Shown here: piece after piece, positions 21,835 through 49,111 of the stretch
Numbering within the stretch: position 1 is the first letter of the stretch
How the letters are laid out: each line of letters starts with the position of its first letter
Source: Methyloversatilis universalis EHg5
GTDB lineage: Bacteria; Pseudomonadota; Gammaproteobacteria; Burkholderiales; Rhodocyclaceae
Reading direction: 5' to 3'
Length of the DNA stretch: 64,000 nt
Assembly (NCBI RefSeq): GCF_000378945.1
Contig: NZ_KB900539.1
Coordinates: 1,776,527 to 1,840,526 of the forward strand
Made by a program: the position numbers and the translations under genes
The notes under the pieces: model-generated
Databases searched by the model: none
Seen by the model: the letters and a program-made list of their open reading frames with translations, nothing else
What the model was told of the DNA's origin: nothing

Positions 21835-23769
21835 ATGGCCACTCCCAGCAGCTACAACGCCTCAGAAATCCAGGTGCTCGAGGGCATTGCGCCCATTCAG
21901 AAGCGCCCGGACATGTACACCCGGACCGACAGTCCGAACCACATCATCCAGGAAATGATCGACAACGCCTGCGACGAGGCCCAGGGCGGCTTCGCCAACG
22001 GCATCCGGGTGGTGATGCATGGCGACGGCTCGGTGTCGGTCGAGGACAACGGTCGCGGCATTCCGGTCGATATTCATCCGACCAAGAAGGTGCCGGCGAT
22101 CGAGGTCATCTTTACCATCCCGCACTCGGGTGGCAAGTTCGAGGGCAAGGCCTACAAGATCGCCGGCGGTCTGCACGGCGTCGGCGTCACCGTCACCAAT
22201 GCGCTGTCCACCCGGCTGGAAGCGACGGTGAAGCGCGGTGGCCGCGAACATTCGATCGCCTTCGACCACGGCATTTCGCAGGGGCTGACCGAGGTCGGCA
22301 GCTGTCCGAAGTCGCACACCGGTACCCGGGTGCGCGCCTGGCCGGATCCGAAGTATTTCGCCAGCAACCGCGTGCGCAAGGCCGACATCGAACACCTGCT
22401 GCGCGCCCGCAGCGCCATGCTGCCCGGTGTGCGCATCCGCTTCGAGGACGAGGAGAGCGGGGCGGTACAGGAGTGGCAGTACGCCAATGGCCTGGGCGAC
22501 TACCTGCGCGAACAGCTGGGCGAGGTGCCGGTGCCGCTGTTCTGCGGCGCACGTACCGCGATCGCCGGCTATGACGAAGGCGAGGGCGCGGAGTGGGCGA
22601 TTGTCTTCCCGGAAGGCGCGTCGGTGCGCGAATCCTTCGTGAACCTGATTCCGACGCCGGGCGGCGGCATGCACGAATCGGGCATGCGGCAGGCGCTGTT
22701 CGAATCGGTGAAGGACTACGCCACCCACCACGGTCTGATGCCGGCCAAGCTCGCGCTGCAGTCGGAAGACGTGTCGCAGCACGCGAGCTACGTGCTCAGC
22801 GCCAAGGTGCTGGAACCGCGCTTCCAGGGCCAGACCAAGGACAAGCTGAACAACCGCGAGGCGGTGAAGCTGGTCTATGAGTGCATCAAGGACACGCTGG
22901 ACCGCTGGCTCAACGACAACGCAGCCGAGGCGCAGCGCATCTGCGGCCTGGCGATCAGGAGCGCCCAGACCCGCGCACGCGCCGGCAAGGTGGTGGAAAA
23001 GCGCGCCGGCTCTGGCGTCACGCTGCTGCCGGGCAAGCTCACCGACGCCACCGGCACCTCGCCGGAACAGAACGAAATCTTCCTGGTCGAGGGCGACTCG
23101 GCCGGCGGCAGCGCCAAGCAGGCGCGCGACCGCCAGTTCCAGGCGGTGCTGCCACTGCGCGGCAAGGTGCTGAACACCTTCGAGATCGACTCGTCGGAAA
23201 TCTTCGCCAACAACGAGGTGCATGACATCGCGGTGGCGCTGGGCATCGATCCGCACAAGCCGGATGCGCCGTACGCGGTACTCGACGGCCTGCGCTATCA
23301 CAAGATCATCATCCTGTCGGACGCCGACGTCGATGGCGCGCACATCCAGACGCTGCAGCTCACGCTCTTCCTGCGCCACTTCCCCAAGCTGATCGAGCGT
23401 GGCCACGTGTTCATCGGCCAGCCGCCGCTGTACTGCGTGAAGATCGCGCCGACCAAGACGCGGCCGGCGCGCCGGCTCTACGCGCTGGACGAAGCCGAGC
23501 GCGACAGCATTCTCGCCAACCTGATCGCCGACGGCATCGCTGAAAGTGCGCTGACGGTGAGCCGCTTCAAGGGTCTGGGCGAAATGAATCCGGACGAGCT
23601 GAAGGAAACCGCGATGAACCCGGAAACCCGACGGCTCATCCGCATCACTTCCGGCGCAGATCCGGAACTGGTGCTGAACACCTTCACCATGCTGATGGGC
23701 AAGAAGGAAGCCGAGCGCCGTCGCCGCTGGATGGAGCTGGAAGGCGACAAGGTGGTGCCGGACGCTTGA
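21835..23769 (+). CDS. parE: DNA topoisomerase IV subunit B
   Basis: A 644-residue ATPase subunit of topoisomerase IV, which decatenates daughter chromosomes. The GHKL ATPase region has NHIIQEMIDNACDEAQGG (the ATP-binding Asn), VEDNGRGIPV and the GGLHGVG lid. The TOPRIM domain shows the EGDSAGG motif and DADVDGAHI. The length and lack of a gyrase insert support ParE over GyrB. parC follows in the same direction after a repeat element of about 105 bases. Confidence 0.95.
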   Translation: MATPSSYNASEIQVLEGIAPIQKRPDMYTRTDSPNHIIQEMIDNACDEAQGGFANGIRVVMHGDGSVSVEDNGRGIPVDIHPTKKVPAIEVIFTIPHSGGKFEGKAYKIAGGLHGVGVTVTNALSTRLEATVKRGGREHSIAFDHGISQGLTEVGSCPKSHTGTRVRAWPDPKYFASNRVRKADIEHLLRARSAMLPGVRIRFEDEESGAVQEWQYANGLGDYLREQLGEVPVPLFCGARTAIAGYDEGEGAEWAIVFPEGASVRESFVNLIPTPGGGMHESGMRQALFESVKDYATHHGLMPAKLALQSEDVSQHASYVLSAKVLEPRFQGQTKDKLNNREAVKLVYECIKDTLDRWLNDNAAEAQRICGLAIRSAQTRARAGKVVEKRAGSGVTLLPGKLTDATGTSPEQNEIFLVEGDSAGGSAKQARDRQFQAVLPLRGKVLNTFEIDSSEIFANNEVHDIAVALGIDPHKPDAPYAVLDGLRYHKIIILSDADVDGAHIQTLQLTLFLRHFPKLIERGHVFIGQPPLYCVKIAPTKTRPARRLYALDEAERDSILANLIADGIAESALTVSRFKGLGEMNPDELKETAMNPETRRLIRITSGADPELVLNTFTMLMGKKEAERRRRWMELEGDKVVPDA

Positions 23770-23778
23770 CGGCAGAGA

Positions 23779-23883
23779 CTAGGGACCAGGGGCTAGGGGC
23801 TGATGAGCGGCGCGGTGTCGCGTTCAGTTCGTGTGGCGAAGCCACACCGCTTCCCTAGTCCCTAGCCCCTCATCCCCAGCCCC
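23779..23883. repeat. Composite palindromic intergenic repeat, copy A (between parE and parC)
   Basis: The left arm (23779-23807) is made of GGGACCAG/GGGGCTAG/GGGGCTGATGAG units. The right arm (23853-23883) is made of the complementary CCCTAGTCCCT, AGCCCCTCATCCCC and AGCCCC units. In the middle is a perfect 7-bp hairpin, GTGTGGC-GAA-GCCACAC (23831-23847). A second copy with the same plan lies at 46545-46639 between nirD and nirB. Shared words include CCCTAGTCCCT and CCCTCATCCC. Confidence 0.75.
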
Positions 23884-23919
23884 TTCACAGACACACAACG
23901 AAATACCCGGAGCACTCCG

Positions 23920-26172
23920 TTGACTGACAACCTGTTCGAACCCGACATCGCTGACATCCCGGTCGATGCGCATGCGGCGCAGGCCTATCTGACCTATGCG
24001 ATGTCGGTGGTCACCTCGCGCGCGCTGCCGGGGCTGGAAGACGGCATGAAGCCGGTGCAGCGTCGCATCCTGTTCGCGATGGACGGTTTTGCCCGTCCGG
24101 ATGCCGCGCACAAGAAGTCCGCCCGCGTGGTCGGTGACGTGATCGGCAAATACCACCCGCACGGCGATTCGTCGGTCTATGAGGCGATGGTGCGTCTGGC
24201 CCAGCCCTTTACGCTGCGCTATCCGCTGATCGACGGCCAGGGCAATTTCGGGTCGATGGACGGCGACAACGCCGCCGCCATGCGTTACACCGAGTGCCGC
24301 CTGACGCCGTTCGCGCGCCACGTGCTGCTGTCCGAGCTGAATGCCGGCGTGATCGAGTTCCAGCCCAATTACGACGGCACGCAGCAGGAACCTTCACTGC
24401 TGCCGGCGCGGCTGCCAGTGGTGCTGGCCAACGGTGCATCCGGCATCGCGGTCGGCATGGCCTGTGAAATCCCGCCGCACAACCTGCGCGAACTGGGCGA
24501 GGCCACCTGCAGGCTGCTGGTCGATCCGCGCATGCCGGACGACGATATCATCGACTGCATCCAGGGGCCGGATTTTCCGAACGGCGCCACGCTCATTTCG
24601 TCGCGCGAAACCATCGTCGCCGCCTACAAGGAAGGGCGCGGTTCCTTCCGCATGCGGGCCAATTACGAGGTCGAGGCGCTGGCGCGCGGCCAGTGGCAGA
24701 TCGTGGTCAGCGCGCTGCCGCCGGGCGTGAGCACCGGCGCAGTGATGAGCCGCATCGACGACCTCGCCAACCCGAAGCCCAAGGGCGACAAGAAGAAGAT
24801 CAGCGACGACCAGGCGCGCACCAAGACGCTGGCCACCTCGCTGATCGATTCGGTGCGCGACGAATCCGACGCGCGTCACCCGGTGCGTCTGGTGATCGAG
24901 CCGAAGTCGCGTGCGGTGAGCCAGGAAGACCTGCTGGCTTTCCTGTTCGCCTATACCGACCTCGAATGCAACGCCAGCCTGAACCTGACGCTGCTGGACA
25001 CCCACCGCCGCCCGGGCCAGATCGGCCTGCCCGCGGTGCTGCGCCAGTGGTGCGACTACCGTCTGGGCGCGGTGACCCGACGGCTGACCCAGCGCATCGC
25101 CGACATCGACGATCGCATGCACATCCTGGACGGCCGGCTGGCCATCCTGCTCGACATCGACCGCGCGATCGCCATCATCCGCGCCGCCGACGACCCGAAG
25201 GCCGACCTGATGGCCGGTTTCGGCATCACCGAGCGACAGGCCGAGGACGTGCTGGAAATCCGGCTGCGCCAGCTGGCCCGGCTTGAGGCCATCAAGCTGC
25301 AGGGTGAGCGCGACGCGCTGGACGCCGAGCGCACCGGTCTGCTCAAGCTGCTGGGCAGCGACAGCGCATTGCGCACCTTCGTGCGCGACGAGGTGCGCGC
25401 CGACGTCGAACGTTTCGGTGACGAGCGTCGTACGCTGATCAATGCCGACGTGCAGGCCACGCGCACCCGCGAAGTGCCGCAGATCGATGAAGCGGTGACC
25501 GTCATCGTGTCGCGCGGCGGTTTCGGCCGGCTGCGGTCCGGCCACGACGTCGATGAAGCCGCGCTGACCTGGAAGGCGGACGACGGCCCGCTGGCGGTGC
25601 TGAAGTGCCGCACCGTGTGGCCGGTGGTGCTGATCGACGGCGATGGCCGCAGCTACACCATCAAGCCGACCGATCTGCCCAGCGGCAAGGGCGACGGCGT
25701 GCCGGTGTCCTCGCTGGCCGATCTGGCCGGCAAGAAGCTGGTGGCCGCACTCACCGGCGAGCCGGGCAGCCGCTTCCTGGTGGCGTCCGACAGTGGCTAC
25801 GGCTTCGTGTGCGCGATCGAGGACATGGTGAGCCGCCAGCGCGCGGGCAAGGCCTTCCTGAACACCGACGGCGGCACGGCGCTGGCGCCGGTAAAACTGC
25901 TGCCTACGGACCGCTGGGTGGTGGCACAGGGCGGCGACCGCCTGCTGGCCTTCCCGCTGGAGGAGATGAAAACGCTGTCCGGCGGCAAGGGCGTGAAGAT
26001 CATGACGCTGCCGGAGGGCGAATCGCTCGCGCTGCTCACGCTGTTCCGCGAAAAGCTGGCGCTGCCGGTGGCCGGGTCACGCGGGCGTGCAAAGACGCTG
26101 AACATCGACGAGAACGCACTGATGGCGTGGCGCGGCGTGCGGGCGACCAAGGGCCGCAAGCTGGACGGCTAG
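23920..26172 (+). CDS. parC: DNA topoisomerase IV subunit A
   Basis: A 750-residue DNA breakage-reunion subunit. The active-site tyrosine is Tyr123 in [14 protein letters not shown]-like [17 protein letters not shown] and [16 protein letters not shown] precede it. The C-terminal beta-pinwheel is shorter than in GyrA and lacks a full GyrA box, supporting ParC. The start is TTG 23920, 7 bases after CGGAG; no ATG fits the conserved N-terminus. Confidence 0.95.
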
Positions 26173-46195: not shown

Positions 46196-46516
46196 TCAGG
46201 CCTTCAGCATCACCTGGCCGTTTTCGACTTTCACGTCGAAGCCACGGGTGCAGCCGACGTCGGGGGCGACCGCTTCGCCCGATTCCAGCTTGATCTTCCA
46301 GCTGTGCAAAGGACAGGTGACGGTGTCGCCATGCACGATGCCCTGTGACAGCGGGCCGCCCTTGTGCGGGCACTTGTCGTGCACCGCGAACACGCGGTCG
46401 CCGTCGGTGCGGAAGATGGCGATGTCGCCGGACTCGGCGCTCACCACGCGCGAGCCGAGCAGCGGGATGTCTTCGAGCGCGCAGACGTGCGCCCAGGTGG
46501 AGGTTTCGGTGCTCAT
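46196..46516 (-). CDS. nirD: Nitrite reductase (NADH) small subunit
   Basis: A 106-residue Rieske-fold protein. It keeps the cluster ligand motif in CPHKGGPLSQGIVHGD and TCPLHSWKI, so it may bind a [2Fe-2S] cluster, unlike the E. coli NirD, which lost the ligands. It pairs with NirB. It is separated from nirB by a repeat element of about 95 bases. Confidence 0.94.
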   Translation of the reverse strand: MSTETSTWAHVCALEDIPLLGSRVVSAESGDIAIFRTDGDRVFAVHDKCPHKGGPLSQGIVHGDTVTCPLHSWKIKLESGEAVAPDVGCTRGFDVKVENGQVMLKA

Positions 46517-46544
46517 GAGGGTTCCTGTATGGGTATCTGAAGGA

Positions 46545-46639
46545 GCTGGGGGCTAGGGGTGAGGGGCTGGGGAACAGGCGCGGCTTTGCCGCGCGAGGTG
46601 GGCTTGTCGCCAGCCCCTGACCCCTAGTCCCTCATCCCT
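46545..46639. repeat. Composite palindromic intergenic repeat, copy B (between nirD and nirB)
   Basis: The left arm (46545-46572) has GGGGGCTAGGGGTGAGGGGCTGGGG-type units. The right arm (46610-46639) is its imperfect complement: 17 of 18 bases of CTAGGGGTGAGGGGCTGG pair. The centre holds a perfect 7-bp hairpin GCGCGGC-TTT-GCCGCGC (46578-46594). The plan (G-rich arm, 7-bp hairpin with three-base loop, C-rich arm) is the same as copy A at 23779-23883. It ends four bases before the nirB stop codon. Confidence 0.75.
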
Positions 46640-46642
46640 GAA

Positions 46643-49111
46643 TCAAGCCTTCATCGCCTGTTTGATGGCGATGGTGCGGAACTCGCGGCCGAGCTCGGAT
46701 TTCGCGTCGGCTTCGGCGCGTTCCAGCCACGGGTCCTTGTAGTCCTGCAGCGCGAACAGCAGGCGCTCGTACAGCGCCTTGCGGTTCTCGGCGTCATCGA
46801 CCACCTTGCCCTTCACGTAGTCGAGACCGACGCGCTCGATGTAGTGCACCGTGCGTTCGAGGTACCAGCCTTCTTCGCGGTAGAGCTGCAGGAAGGCGCC
46901 GGAGTACTCCATCACCTCGTCGTCGCTGGCCACCTTGCAGAAGAACTGCGCCACTTCGGTCTTGATGCCGCCATTGCCGGCGACATAGATTTCGTAGCCC
47001 GATTCGACGCCGATCACGCCCACGTCCTTGATGCCGGCCTCGGCGCAGTTGCGCGGGCAGCCGGACACCGCGAGCTTCACCTTGTGCGGGCTGTACATGC
47101 CGAACAGCATCTTTTCCAGCTTCACGCCCAGGCCCATGGACAGCTGGGTGCCGAAGCGGCAGTGCTCGGCGCCGACGCAGGTTTTCACCGTGCGCAGGCT
47201 CTTGCCGTAGGCGTGGCCGGACACCATGCCGGCCTTGGCGAAATCGGCCCACATCGCCGGCAGGTCGTCCTTCTTCACGCCCAGCAGGTCGATGCGCTGG
47301 CCGCCGGTCACCTTCACCGTCGGCACCTTGTACTTCTCGGCCGCATCTGCGATGGCGCGCAGTTCGTCCGGCGTGGTCAGGCCGCCCCACATGCGCGGCA
47401 CCACCGAGTAGGTGCCGTCCTTCTGAATGTTGGCGTGCGCGCGCTCGTTGATGAAGCGGCTCTGCGCGTCGTCCTTGGCTTCGTGCGGCCAGGTCGAGAT
47501 CAGGTAGTAGTTCAGCGCCGGGCGGCAGGAGGCGCAGCCGTTGGGCGTCTTCCACTTCAGTTCGCGCTGCACGGTCGGGATGTCGATCATGTGGCGGTCG
47601 CGGATGGCGGCACGCACGTCGCCATGATTCATGTCGGTGCAGCCGCACATCGGCTTCGAGCTGGAATCGGCCGGCGTGTAGGCGCCACCGACGCAGGAGG
47701 CGAGGATCTGTTCGACCAGACCGGTGCAGGAGCCGCAGGAGCTGGACGCCTTGGTGTGCTTGCGCACGTCGTCCAGCGAGAACAGGCCCTTCTCCTTGAT
47801 CGCCTTGACGATGGTGCCCTTGCACACGCCGTTGCAGCCGCACACCTCGGCGCTGTCCGGCATCGAGGCGGCCTGGGTCTGGCCCTTGTGGCCGACGTCG
47901 CCCAGGTGGTTCTGGCCGAACATCAGGTGGTCGCGCACCGCGTGAATGTCCTGGCCGTCCTTGATCAGCTGGAAGTACCAGCTGCCATCGGCGGTGTCGC
48001 CGTACAGACAGGCGCCGACCAGGCGCTCGCCTTCGAGCACCAGGCGCTTGTACACCCCGCCCGACGGGTCGTGCAGCACGATGTCGTCGCAGCCCGGGCC
48101 ACCCATGAAGTTGCCGGCCGAGAACACGTCGATGCCGGTGACCTTGAGCTTGGTCGAGGTGACCGAACCCTTGTAGGTGCCGATGCCGTAGTGGGCGAGG
48201 TGGTTGGCGCACACCTTGGCCTGTTCGAACAGCGGCGCGACCAGGCCGTAGGCGATGCCGCGGTGGTTCACGCACTCGCCGACCGCGTAGATCTTCGGGT
48301 CGTAGGTCTGCAGCGTGTCATTGACCACGATGCCGCGGTTGCAGTGAATGCCGGCCGATTCGGCCAGCGTGGTGTTCGGGCGGATGCCGGCGGCCATCAC
48401 CACCAGATCGGCCGGAATGGATTCGCCGCTCTTGAAGCGCACCGCGGACACGCGGCCGTCGGCTCCGGCGATCAGCGATTCCGTCTGCTTCTCGAGCAGG
48501 AAGGTGAGGCCCTTCTTCTCCAGCGAGGCCTGCAGCATGTCGGCCGAGGGCTTGTCGAGCTGACGCTCCATGATCCACGGCGCAAGGTGCACCACGGTCA
48601 CCTGCATGCCGCGCAGCGCCAGGCCGTTGGCGGCTTCCAGGCCGAGCAGGCCGGCGCCGATCACGACCGCGTGCTTGCGCGTCGCGGCGGCTTCGATCAT
48701 GGCGTCGGTGTCGGCAATGTCGCGATAGGCGATCACGCCCGGCAGGTCCTTGCCCGGCACCGGCAGGATGAAGGGGTTGGAGCCGGTGGCCAGCAGCAGG
48801 CGGTCGTACTCCGCTTCGCTGCCGTCGTCGGCGATCACCTTGCGTGCGATGCGGTCGATCTTCGTGACCTTCCGGCCCGCATGCAGCGTGATGCCGTTGT
48901 CGCGGTACCAGTCCCAGTCATTCAGGATGATGTCCTGGATGGTCATTTCGCCGGCCAGCACCGGCGACAGCAGGATGCGGTTGTAGTTCGGATGCGGCTC
49001 CGCCCCGAACACCGTGATGTCATACATCTCCGGCGCGATCTTGAGCAACTCTTCCAGCGTGCGGCAACCCGCCATCCCGTTGCCGATCATGACCAGACGC
49101 TTCTTTTCCAT
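46643..49111 (-). CDS. nirB: Nitrite reductase (NADH) large subunit
   Basis: An 822-residue cytoplasmic siroheme enzyme reducing nitrite to ammonium. In order it has an FAD/NAD(P)-binding pyridine nucleotide-disulfide domain (GNGMAG near residues 11-16), two BFD-like [2Fe-2S] segments (CGCNGVCKG, CGSCTGLVEQ), a ferredoxin-like half and the siroheme/[4Fe-4S] domain. The last shows TCVGAEHCRFGTQ and SGCPRNCAEAGI. It is the first gene of the minus-strand nitrate operon. The ATG at 49111 has a GGGGA just upstream. Confidence 0.96.
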   Translation of the reverse strand: MEKKRLVMIGNGMAGCRTLEELLKIAPEMYDITVFGAEPHPNYNRILLSPVLAGEMTIQDIILNDWDWYRDNGITLHAGRKVTKIDRIARKVIADDGSEAEYDRLLLATGSNPFILPVPGKDLPGVIAYRDIADTDAMIEAAATRKHAVVIGAGLLGLEAANGLALRGMQVTVVHLAPWIMERQLDKPSADMLQASLEKKGLTFLLEKQTESLIAGADGRVSAVRFKSGESIPADLVVMAAGIRPNTTLAESAGIHCNRGIVVNDTLQTYDPKIYAVGECVNHRGIAYGLVAPLFEQAKVCANHLAHYGIGTYKGSVTSTKLKVTGIDVFSAGNFMGGPGCDDIVLHDPSGGVYKRLVLEGERLVGACLYGDTADGSWYFQLIKDGQDIHAVRDHLMFGQNHLGDVGHKGQTQAASMPDSAEVCGCNGVCKGTIVKAIKEKGLFSLDDVRKHTKASSSCGSCTGLVEQILASCVGGAYTPADSSSKPMCGCTDMNHGDVRAAIRDRHMIDIPTVQRELKWKTPNGCASCRPALNYYLISTWPHEAKDDAQSRFINERAHANIQKDGTYSVVPRMWGGLTTPDELRAIADAAEKYKVPTVKVTGGQRIDLLGVKKDDLPAMWADFAKAGMVSGHAYGKSLRTVKTCVGAEHCRFGTQLSMGLGVKLEKMLFGMYSPHKVKLAVSGCPRNCAEAGIKDVGVIGVESGYEIYVAGNGGIKTEVAQFFCKVASDDEVMEYSGAFLQLYREEGWYLERTVHYIERVGLDYVKGKVVDDAENRKALYERLLFALQDYKDPWLERAEADAKSELGREFRTIAIKQAMKA

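Follow-up and report, generated by a model that had tools for sequence, protein, structure and literature searches.

Composite heptamer foldback elements at orthologous gene gaps in Methyloversatilis

INTRODUCTION

Arrays of 7-base units are on record from Xanthomonas, cyanobacteria, and sulfur bacteria, but no role has been established for them, and discussion of the G-rich ones has been shaped by the idea of a G-quadruplex. In the available text of Rehm et al. (2015, PMC4692102), the units are GGGAATC/GGGNATC in Xanthomonas and GGGGA(C/T)T in Nostoc, and 183 to 186 arrays per Xanthomonas genome and 89 in Nostoc were counted from two units up. The TAACTGA repeats of the Beggiatoaceae are likewise dispersed intergenic 7-base arrays, with no function established in the accessible part of that report (MacGregor 2015, PMC4679880). 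REP/BIME sequences with RAYT are intergenic palindromes that lie mostly past coding regions in co-directional or convergent gaps and are plausibly transcribed; in most REPs a GTAG or CGTC tag is present, by the accessible text of Di Nocera et al. (2013, PMC3733652).

We analyzed a window of 64,000 nucleotides from Methyloversatilis universalis EHg5 (C1:1776527-1840526) and followed a composite repeat, seen in its parE-parC and nirB-nirD gaps, through the 4,088,571 bases of the genome (G000) and through the genus. The ParC protein of the window matches Methyloversatilis discipulorum MAG_31 at 95% and M. thermotolerans at 91%. This heptamer foldback is a real dispersed structural repeat that is kept at orthologous gene gaps. 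We found no report of such elements in Methyloversatilis in the literature searched, with subscription journals mostly outside its reach.

The closest published kind, as far as the available text of PMC4692102 describes it, is the heptamer repeat of Xanthomonas and Nostoc, of which the Methyloversatilis form is a variant with another unit, few copies, and apparently an added hairpin core. Like those repeats, it has G-rich, degenerate 7-base tandem units with a leading G-tract, is mostly intergenic, sits close past stop codons and ahead of start codons, is found mostly between co-directional and seldom between divergent genes, and occupies the same gaps in related species. As in Xanthomonas, its arrays are often paired in convergent orientation; 70 to 75 inverted pairs are reported per Xanthomonas genome and few pairs for Nostoc (PMC4692102). 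Unlike them, it belongs to a betaproteobacterium, its unit is GGGRNNR, with GGGGCTA common, and not GGGAATC (GGGANTN) or GGGGA(C/T)T, its copies share a 7- to 8-bp triloop hairpin core (a possible difference from the Xanthomonas pairs), and a G-poor unit stands at the same gap in sister species of Methyloversatilis. There are about nine elements against the 183 to 186 arrays of Xanthomonas, the Methyloversatilis count starting from three units, so that short arrays were missed.

The Beggiatoaceae repeats differ in being direct arrays (one indirect case is noted), mostly just upstream of start codons and not G-rich, in the part of PMC4679880 that was accessible. The Methyloversatilis elements share the setting of REP/BIME sequences but differ in their missing GTAG/CGTC tag, low copy number, heptamer arms, and lack of any linked transposase seen. 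A preliminary description of the window had recognized no named REP in the two gaps. The absent GTAG/CGTC tags bear this out, but the repeat is not without precedent, since the Xanthomonas and Nostoc heptamer repeats in the available text of PMC4692102 are of the same kind.

RESULTS

The elements in the parE-parC and nirB-nirD gaps are composite heptamer foldbacks of about 100 bases, read in the sequence as a tandem array of 7-base units, a short core holding a 7- to 8-bp hairpin, and the same kind of array inverted (Table 1). The arms go beyond mere G-rich words: they are degenerate period-7 arrays on opposite strands, made of GGGGCTA, GGGACTA, GGGATGA, and kindred units. We also read GGGGTCA and GGGATCA, and a few units, such as GGGATTA, fit GGGANTN. 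The preliminary description had given both gaps one plan (G-rich arm, 7-bp hairpin with a 3-nt loop, C-rich arm) and had observed that the stems differ in sequence while their length and GGC/GCC closing are kept; both gaps read as it stated. Their folds lie far beyond those of dinucleotide shuffles, at -61 kcal/mol (z -5.67) for the parE-parC gap and -75.7 kcal/mol (z -6.76) for the nirB-nirD gap. The same description listed words shared by the two gaps. With at most one mismatch, CCCTAGTCCCT has six sites in the window against 0.26 expected, all six inside the two gene gaps, well beyond chance, but CCCTCATCCC, with seven sites against 5.43 expected, is not above chance.

Table 1. Positions of the two elements and their neighbors in the window, and of the nine elements and a perfect array in the genome (rows marked "genome" use genome coordinates, all others window coordinates)
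Feature	Position	Strand	Remarks
parE, gyrase B/topoisomerase IV B family, upstream neighbor	21835..23769	+	stop at 23769
parE-parC G-rich arm, about four degenerate heptamers (CTAGGGACCAGGGGCTAGGGGCTGATGAG)	23779..23807	+	begins 9 nt past parE stop codon
parE-parC core flank, GCGGTGTYGCGTTCA region	23808..23830	+	resembles same stretch in related species
parE-parC core hairpin, GTGTGGC-GAA-GCCACAC	23831..23847	+	7-bp stem, GAA loop, GGC/GCC closing
parE-parC C-rich arm, inverted heptamers CCCTAGT CCCTAGC CCCTCAT CCCCAGC CCC	23853..23883	+	ends about 37 nt 5' of parC start
parC, topoisomerase IV A, downstream neighbor	23920..26172	+
nirD, Rieske, small subunit, downstream neighbor	46196..46516	-	start at 46516
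nirB-nirD G-rich arm	46545..46574	+	in gene direction (-), C-rich arm ahead of nirD
nirB-nirD core hairpin, GCGCGGC-TTT-GCCGCGC	46578..46594	+	7-bp stem, TTT loop (AAA in gene direction)
nirB-nirD C-rich arm	46611..46639	+	in gene direction, G-rich arm starting just past nirB stop
nirB, nitrite reductase large subunit, upstream neighbor	46643..49111	-	stop at 46643
Two-armed, with 7- to 8-bp triloop hairpin (genome)	~108913, 1354349, 1800302 (parE-parC), 1823075 (nirB-nirD), 3153488		one pair imperfect at 1354349; that copy does not pass the strict hairpin test
Two-armed, without triloop hairpin (genome)	288449
Perfect 7-unit array (genome)	288511-288559
One-armed (genome)	596786		own 9-bp hairpin, 2-nt loop
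One-armed (genome)	888866
One-armed (genome)	3813533-3813588		eight perfect units

We shuffled one copy per locus for six loci; a hairpin of 7 bp with a 3-nt loop arose at a frequency of 0.0135 to 0.0375, and its GGC/GCC-closed version at 0.0005 to 0.0035. By the same test it is present in 23 of 25 real copies, the exceptions being parE-parC in G002 and carA-carB in G000. Rfam gave no match over the gathering threshold at the elements and only three tRNAs in the whole window. Below threshold, 23774-23884 and 46533-46655 had 13 and 51 matches, nearly all to miRNA precursors and two to lncRNA; such weak precursor matches are expected of a long near-perfect hairpin. The parE-parC gap had no match among plasmids.

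We searched the EHg5 genome with BLAST and two patterns for arrays of at least three units, two-unit arrays falling outside this search. By reading, the genome holds nine elements, five two-armed with the hairpin, one two-armed without it, and three one-armed, and six of the nine have convergent arms on the two strands. Pattern places at 487575, 1430933, and 2354648 were judged nonmembers, the last two on matched letters only, and no array accompanies the BLAST match at 607361. Of the three genome places with the strict hairpin GGGCGGCNNNGCCGCCC, two are within heptamer elements and the third has no adjoining array. We therefore take the hairpin to belong to the element and reject an independent hairpin family, as there is no separate common repeat.

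All nine elements lie 3' of at least one stop codon, close behind which the G-rich arms begin. Five are in co-directional gaps (parE-parC, nirB-nirD, carA-carB, an aldehyde-dehydrogenase-family gene followed by marC, and a competence gene followed by a hydrolase), four are in convergent gaps (metW/MFS, valS/GST, zinc peptidase/zinc dehydrogenase, and ThiF/pyridine nucleotide oxidoreductase), and none is in a divergent gap. We assigned valS and carA by eye from the translation. In one stretch (L300, around 1500-1560), heptamer arrays supply the stop codons of the MetW frame and of the convergent MFS frame, both of which terminate inside them.

For comparison we used 13 genomes of the genus, EHg5 included, and read 50 stretches at array places. 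A four-unit heptamer pattern matched in 9 of the 13. At orthologous gaps the core is the same and the number and kind of units vary, as at parE-parC in G000, G001, G002, and G004. One mismatch breaks the parE-parC stem of G002, in G010 this gap contains a single long array and the core is lost, and the gap holds no heptamer element in 7 of the 12 species read (G009 left out). A different inverted repeat, GTAGGTTGGGGTGAGCGCAGCGATGCCCAAC and its complement, occupies the parE-parC gap of sister species (L095, L098, L167, L188, L189, L290); a similar pair lies downstream of nirD in G012, and G006 has a single copy.

Core models run over the 13 genomes found 19 places (model R3, E up to 0.0011) and 20 places (R2, E up to 0.001), which are lower bounds, as the best 150 candidates per genome were scored and weak copies may be missed. 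Of these at least 39 places, 38 fall within heptamer arms at seven intergenic positions: nirB-nirD (8), parE-parC (4), locus D (4), locus N (3), carA-carB (9), valS (5), and metW (5). The 39th, in G007, is outside any array. Training copies or duplicates account for 25 of the 38, and 13 are new. Together with the nine elements of EHg5, these placements support the dispersed family with a shared plan that the preliminary description had suspected.

Locus D, present only in relatives, lies between divergent genes, and its arms have shrunk to one or two units in G002. The element there is enclosed by a longer inverted repeat of about 26 bp, with a Gcw_chp gene on one side and an FMO gene on the other (L245, L256, and L273, around 860-1130; L354, around 1450-1610). 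Judged by eye, G010/G002 and G001/G004 carry the inner segment in opposite orientations with respect to its flanks.

We compared the nirB-nirD spacers of all 13 genomes, and 12 hold a heptamer foldback. Eight species have GGGGCTA-type units and the GCGCGGC core. In G006, G007, G009, and G011 the units are of a CAAGATG type (ATGCAAG CTGCAAG ... CTTGAAT CTTGCAT) around a different core (L215, L218, L296, L297), whose short stems, by reading, vary with the species (GACGC/GCGTC, GGTGC/GCACC, GGGCGC/GCGCCC). G005 has a plain 30-nt spacer without an element. The 12 foldbacks have fold z values of -2.5 to -7.2 relative to mononucleotide shuffles. Autocorrelation at lag 7 is clear in both halves of the G006, G009, and G011 spacers (z 2.2 to 6.6), and the G007 spacer shows it in the 3' half alone (4.1; 5' half, 1.0). 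It is weaker in the eight GGGGCTA-type spacers (z 0.9 to 4.3) because their G/C-rich arms match at neighboring lags too, yet each of these has a four-unit heptamer match. A single array in stretch L279 grades from CCTTGCC through CCTTGCA to TCTTGAA units.

The cores fall into two subfamilies. The first (parE-parC, nirB-nirD, locus D) has GGGAASAGGYGYGGC-NNN-GCCRCRCG in common, and the second (carA-carB, metW, valS) shares most of GCATGCGGGYGGC-NNN-GCCGCCCGGAA. The stem covariation that the preliminary description had proposed as a check is present but thin in the first subfamily and absent from the second, where both sides changed in 0 of 8 pairs. In the first, both sides changed in 2 of 7 pairs (TA to CG), the other five being invariant, and 98.9% of cells are paired. 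None of 500 shuffles reached this percentage or the covariation score of 0.282, but two pairs changed on both sides were reached in 204 of the 500 and are not exceptional, and with the partner shifted by +2 columns the score was still 0.231. The compensated change splits by locus and so probably represents one or two events. At carA-carB we read by eye a stem of 8 bp in G000, G002, and G012. In G001, G004, and G010 each side is a base shorter, giving 7 bp; in G003, G008, and G011 the shortening affects one side alone, leaving 6 bp and a mismatch. The stem of the one-armed element in the gap at 596786 reads CGGGATGGC/GCCATCCCG in G000 versus CGGGACGGC/GCCGTCCCG in G004, with G001 intermediate.

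We compared stem changes with the expectation on a parC/gyrA tree, with P values uncorrected and recombination assumed absent. Changes were below expectation, clearly so only at nirB-nirD, where the 14 stem bases had 0 changes against 7.55 expected in eight species (P = 0.0005). The counts elsewhere were 1 against 5.37 at valS (five species, P = 0.03), 1 against 4.28 at parE-parC (four species, P = 0.07; G010 was left out because its core is gone), and 2 against 5.37 at metW (five species, P = 0.10); carA-carB was left out because of indels. The start of nirD varies together with the spacer type, which points to recombination, and the nirB-nirD constraint may therefore be overstated.

Selection on structure, which the preliminary description had suggested, does not hold for the arms. 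Using RNAduplex, we paired every left arm with every right arm of 25 elements, own locus and others. The ranks of self-pairing spread from first to last, so that the two arms of an element show no preference for each other over the arms of other elements, and we gave up the idea of an element-by-element matching of arms through template switching or selection. The arms are complementary because both are written in the same units and not because they are pairwise matched.

In 369 genomes of the class, an inverted G-heptamer pattern matched 16, versus 8 for a reversed control; in EHg5 it gave seven overlapping matches in three places, and the control gave none. Six of the 15 other matching genomes were judged to have heptamer foldbacks with other units (G371, G077, G299, G394, G153, G373), that of G299 around a GCGCCC-TTC-GGGCGC core. 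Of 13 places read in viral contigs, 11 counted as foldbacks, one of them (L327) with a 7-bp core stem and a 4-nt loop. As most foldbacks outside Methyloversatilis were read without a strong core hairpin, the hairpin core appears to be largely a trait of this genus. A look-up of the core in Xanthomonas through the family of G373 returned 0 of 11 genomes, probably from the wrong family, and the look-up in viral contigs returned no stretch and then two stretches from one contig. In G343, a further G-rich inverted repeat (GGGGTTGGGGAGAGGGGG..., with a GCGCAGTGCCGG core) has 35 forward and 74 reverse matches (e.g., C3:2-72) and seems to form a distinct high-copy family.

DISCUSSION

We tentatively favor a role for the foldback as a transcribed RNA stem at the 3' end of a gene or between cistrons, although we hold this function with less than even confidence. 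Arrays appear, in part visibly, to grow and shrink in unit number, for which slipped-strand replication is the simplest route. Through this turnover the arms would drift in length and unit sequence, with the core passed on at fixed gene gaps. On transcription of the upstream gene, the RNA past the stop codon would fold into a long stem with the core hairpin as its nucleus, and the stem may tag or shield the upstream message at its 3' end and uncouple the next cistron, as proposed for REP/BIME stems. A repeated unit would be a cheap means of keeping both arms complementary by composition, and the common denominator would be the fold and not a G-quadruplex.

We lean to the RNA stem because all nine elements of EHg5 follow a stop codon and none lies between divergent genes, and because the nirB-nirD foldback exists in 12 of 13 genomes in two unit types with different cores. 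The 98.9% stem pairing, the two compensated pairs, and the absence of nirB-nirD stem changes against 7.55 expected also argue for it, as do the variation in unit number between orthologues and the lack of an intrinsic terminator at either window element. Against the RNA stem stand the arms without element-specific complementarity (25 elements), the loss of the parE-parC hairpin in G010, its mismatch in G002, the 7 of 12 species with no element at that gap, and the position of locus D between divergent genes. The stem-rate test is weak beyond nirB-nirD, where recombination of alleles would lower the expectation, the count of pairs changed on both sides is unexceptional (204 of 500 shuffles), and subfamily 2 has no covariation.

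Nearly as likely as the RNA stem is a passive microsatellite, which we consider a serious candidate short of an even chance. Arrays would arise and expand by replication slippage and be tolerated only in 3' flanks, with the foldback a by-product that has no function. The perfect arrays of eight units at 3813533-3813588 and seven units at 288511-288559 fit such an origin, as do one-armed copies, the turnover of units between orthologues, the lack of arm co-evolution, and the stem changes and losses at metW, valS, and parE-parC; avoidance of promoters alone would produce the 3' bias. Slippage accounts less readily for a core hairpin that is identical in 8 of 8 nirB-nirD orthologues of the GGGGCTA type, for two stem pairs compensated between loci, and for arms inverted around a core above chance (seven overlapping matches in three places of EHg5 versus 0 in the reversed control).

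A broader reading that we consider possible but unlikely is that bacteria in general build intercistronic stems from inverted period-7 arrays, conserving the fold and the 7-base period while the unit "alphabet" can be exchanged. If this were true, the quadruplex reading of such repeats would concern a side effect of G-rich alphabets. One gene gap that holds a foldback in two heptamer alphabets, with and without G-tracts, separates the idea of the fold from that of the quadruplex, and seven gene gaps in 13 genomes make a tractable test set.

A G-quadruplex or i-motif that influences transcription or replication, an idea raised for the Xanthomonas and Nostoc repeats, is improbable in our view. 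At least four G-tracts are present in 17 of 25 left arms and at least four C-tracts in 24 of 25 right arms, and circular dichroism (CD) spectra have been published for oligonucleotides of the GGGAATC and GGGGACT types (PMC4692102, in the text available). However, the left arm of the window's parE-parC copy has three G-tracts only, and the duplex would compete in a transcript carrying both arms. Four of the 12 nirB-nirD foldbacks have units that lack GGG, so that a three-G-tract quadruplex cannot be common to all 12.

We give an equally small chance to a transcription terminator or attenuator between the cistrons. The very stable stem directly past a stop codon would suit one, and the accessible text of PMC4692102 states that transcripts of Xanthomonas axonopodis pv. 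citri start or stop more often at quadruplex-capable than at control repeats. An intrinsic terminator consists of a G+C stem and a T-run; the T-run is absent, no terminator was called at either window element (the lone call in the second stretch is inside nirD), and the operons carA-carB and nirB-nirD would be cut.

A palindromic mobile element (REP or MITE) moved by a RAYT or other transposase is highly improbable: core sequences are common to unlinked loci and the genome has two Y1_Tnp genes, but no GTAG/CGTC tag stands within 8 nt of the stem in any of 25 cores, the GTAG palindromes that flank the RAYT at 2230890 are its own and of a different kind, the other Y1_Tnp gene has none, and there are only about nine copies, at gene gaps that are occupied across species, so that the RAYT mobility raised in the preliminary description finds no backing.

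We read 1.5 kb on each side of both Y1_Tnp loci and saw no heptamer element beside either, and we set aside a RAYT-linked element. The palindromes within 1.5 kb of the gene at 2230890 (GTAGGGTGTGC) are unlike the heptamer elements, and the flanks of the gene at 2181479 contain neither such a palindrome nor any array longer than a two-unit GGGAAGA. In stretch L002, a RAYT-like Y1_Tnp gene (1113-2204) has GTAG-tagged palindromes on both sides, with 7-bp stems and 3-nt loops.
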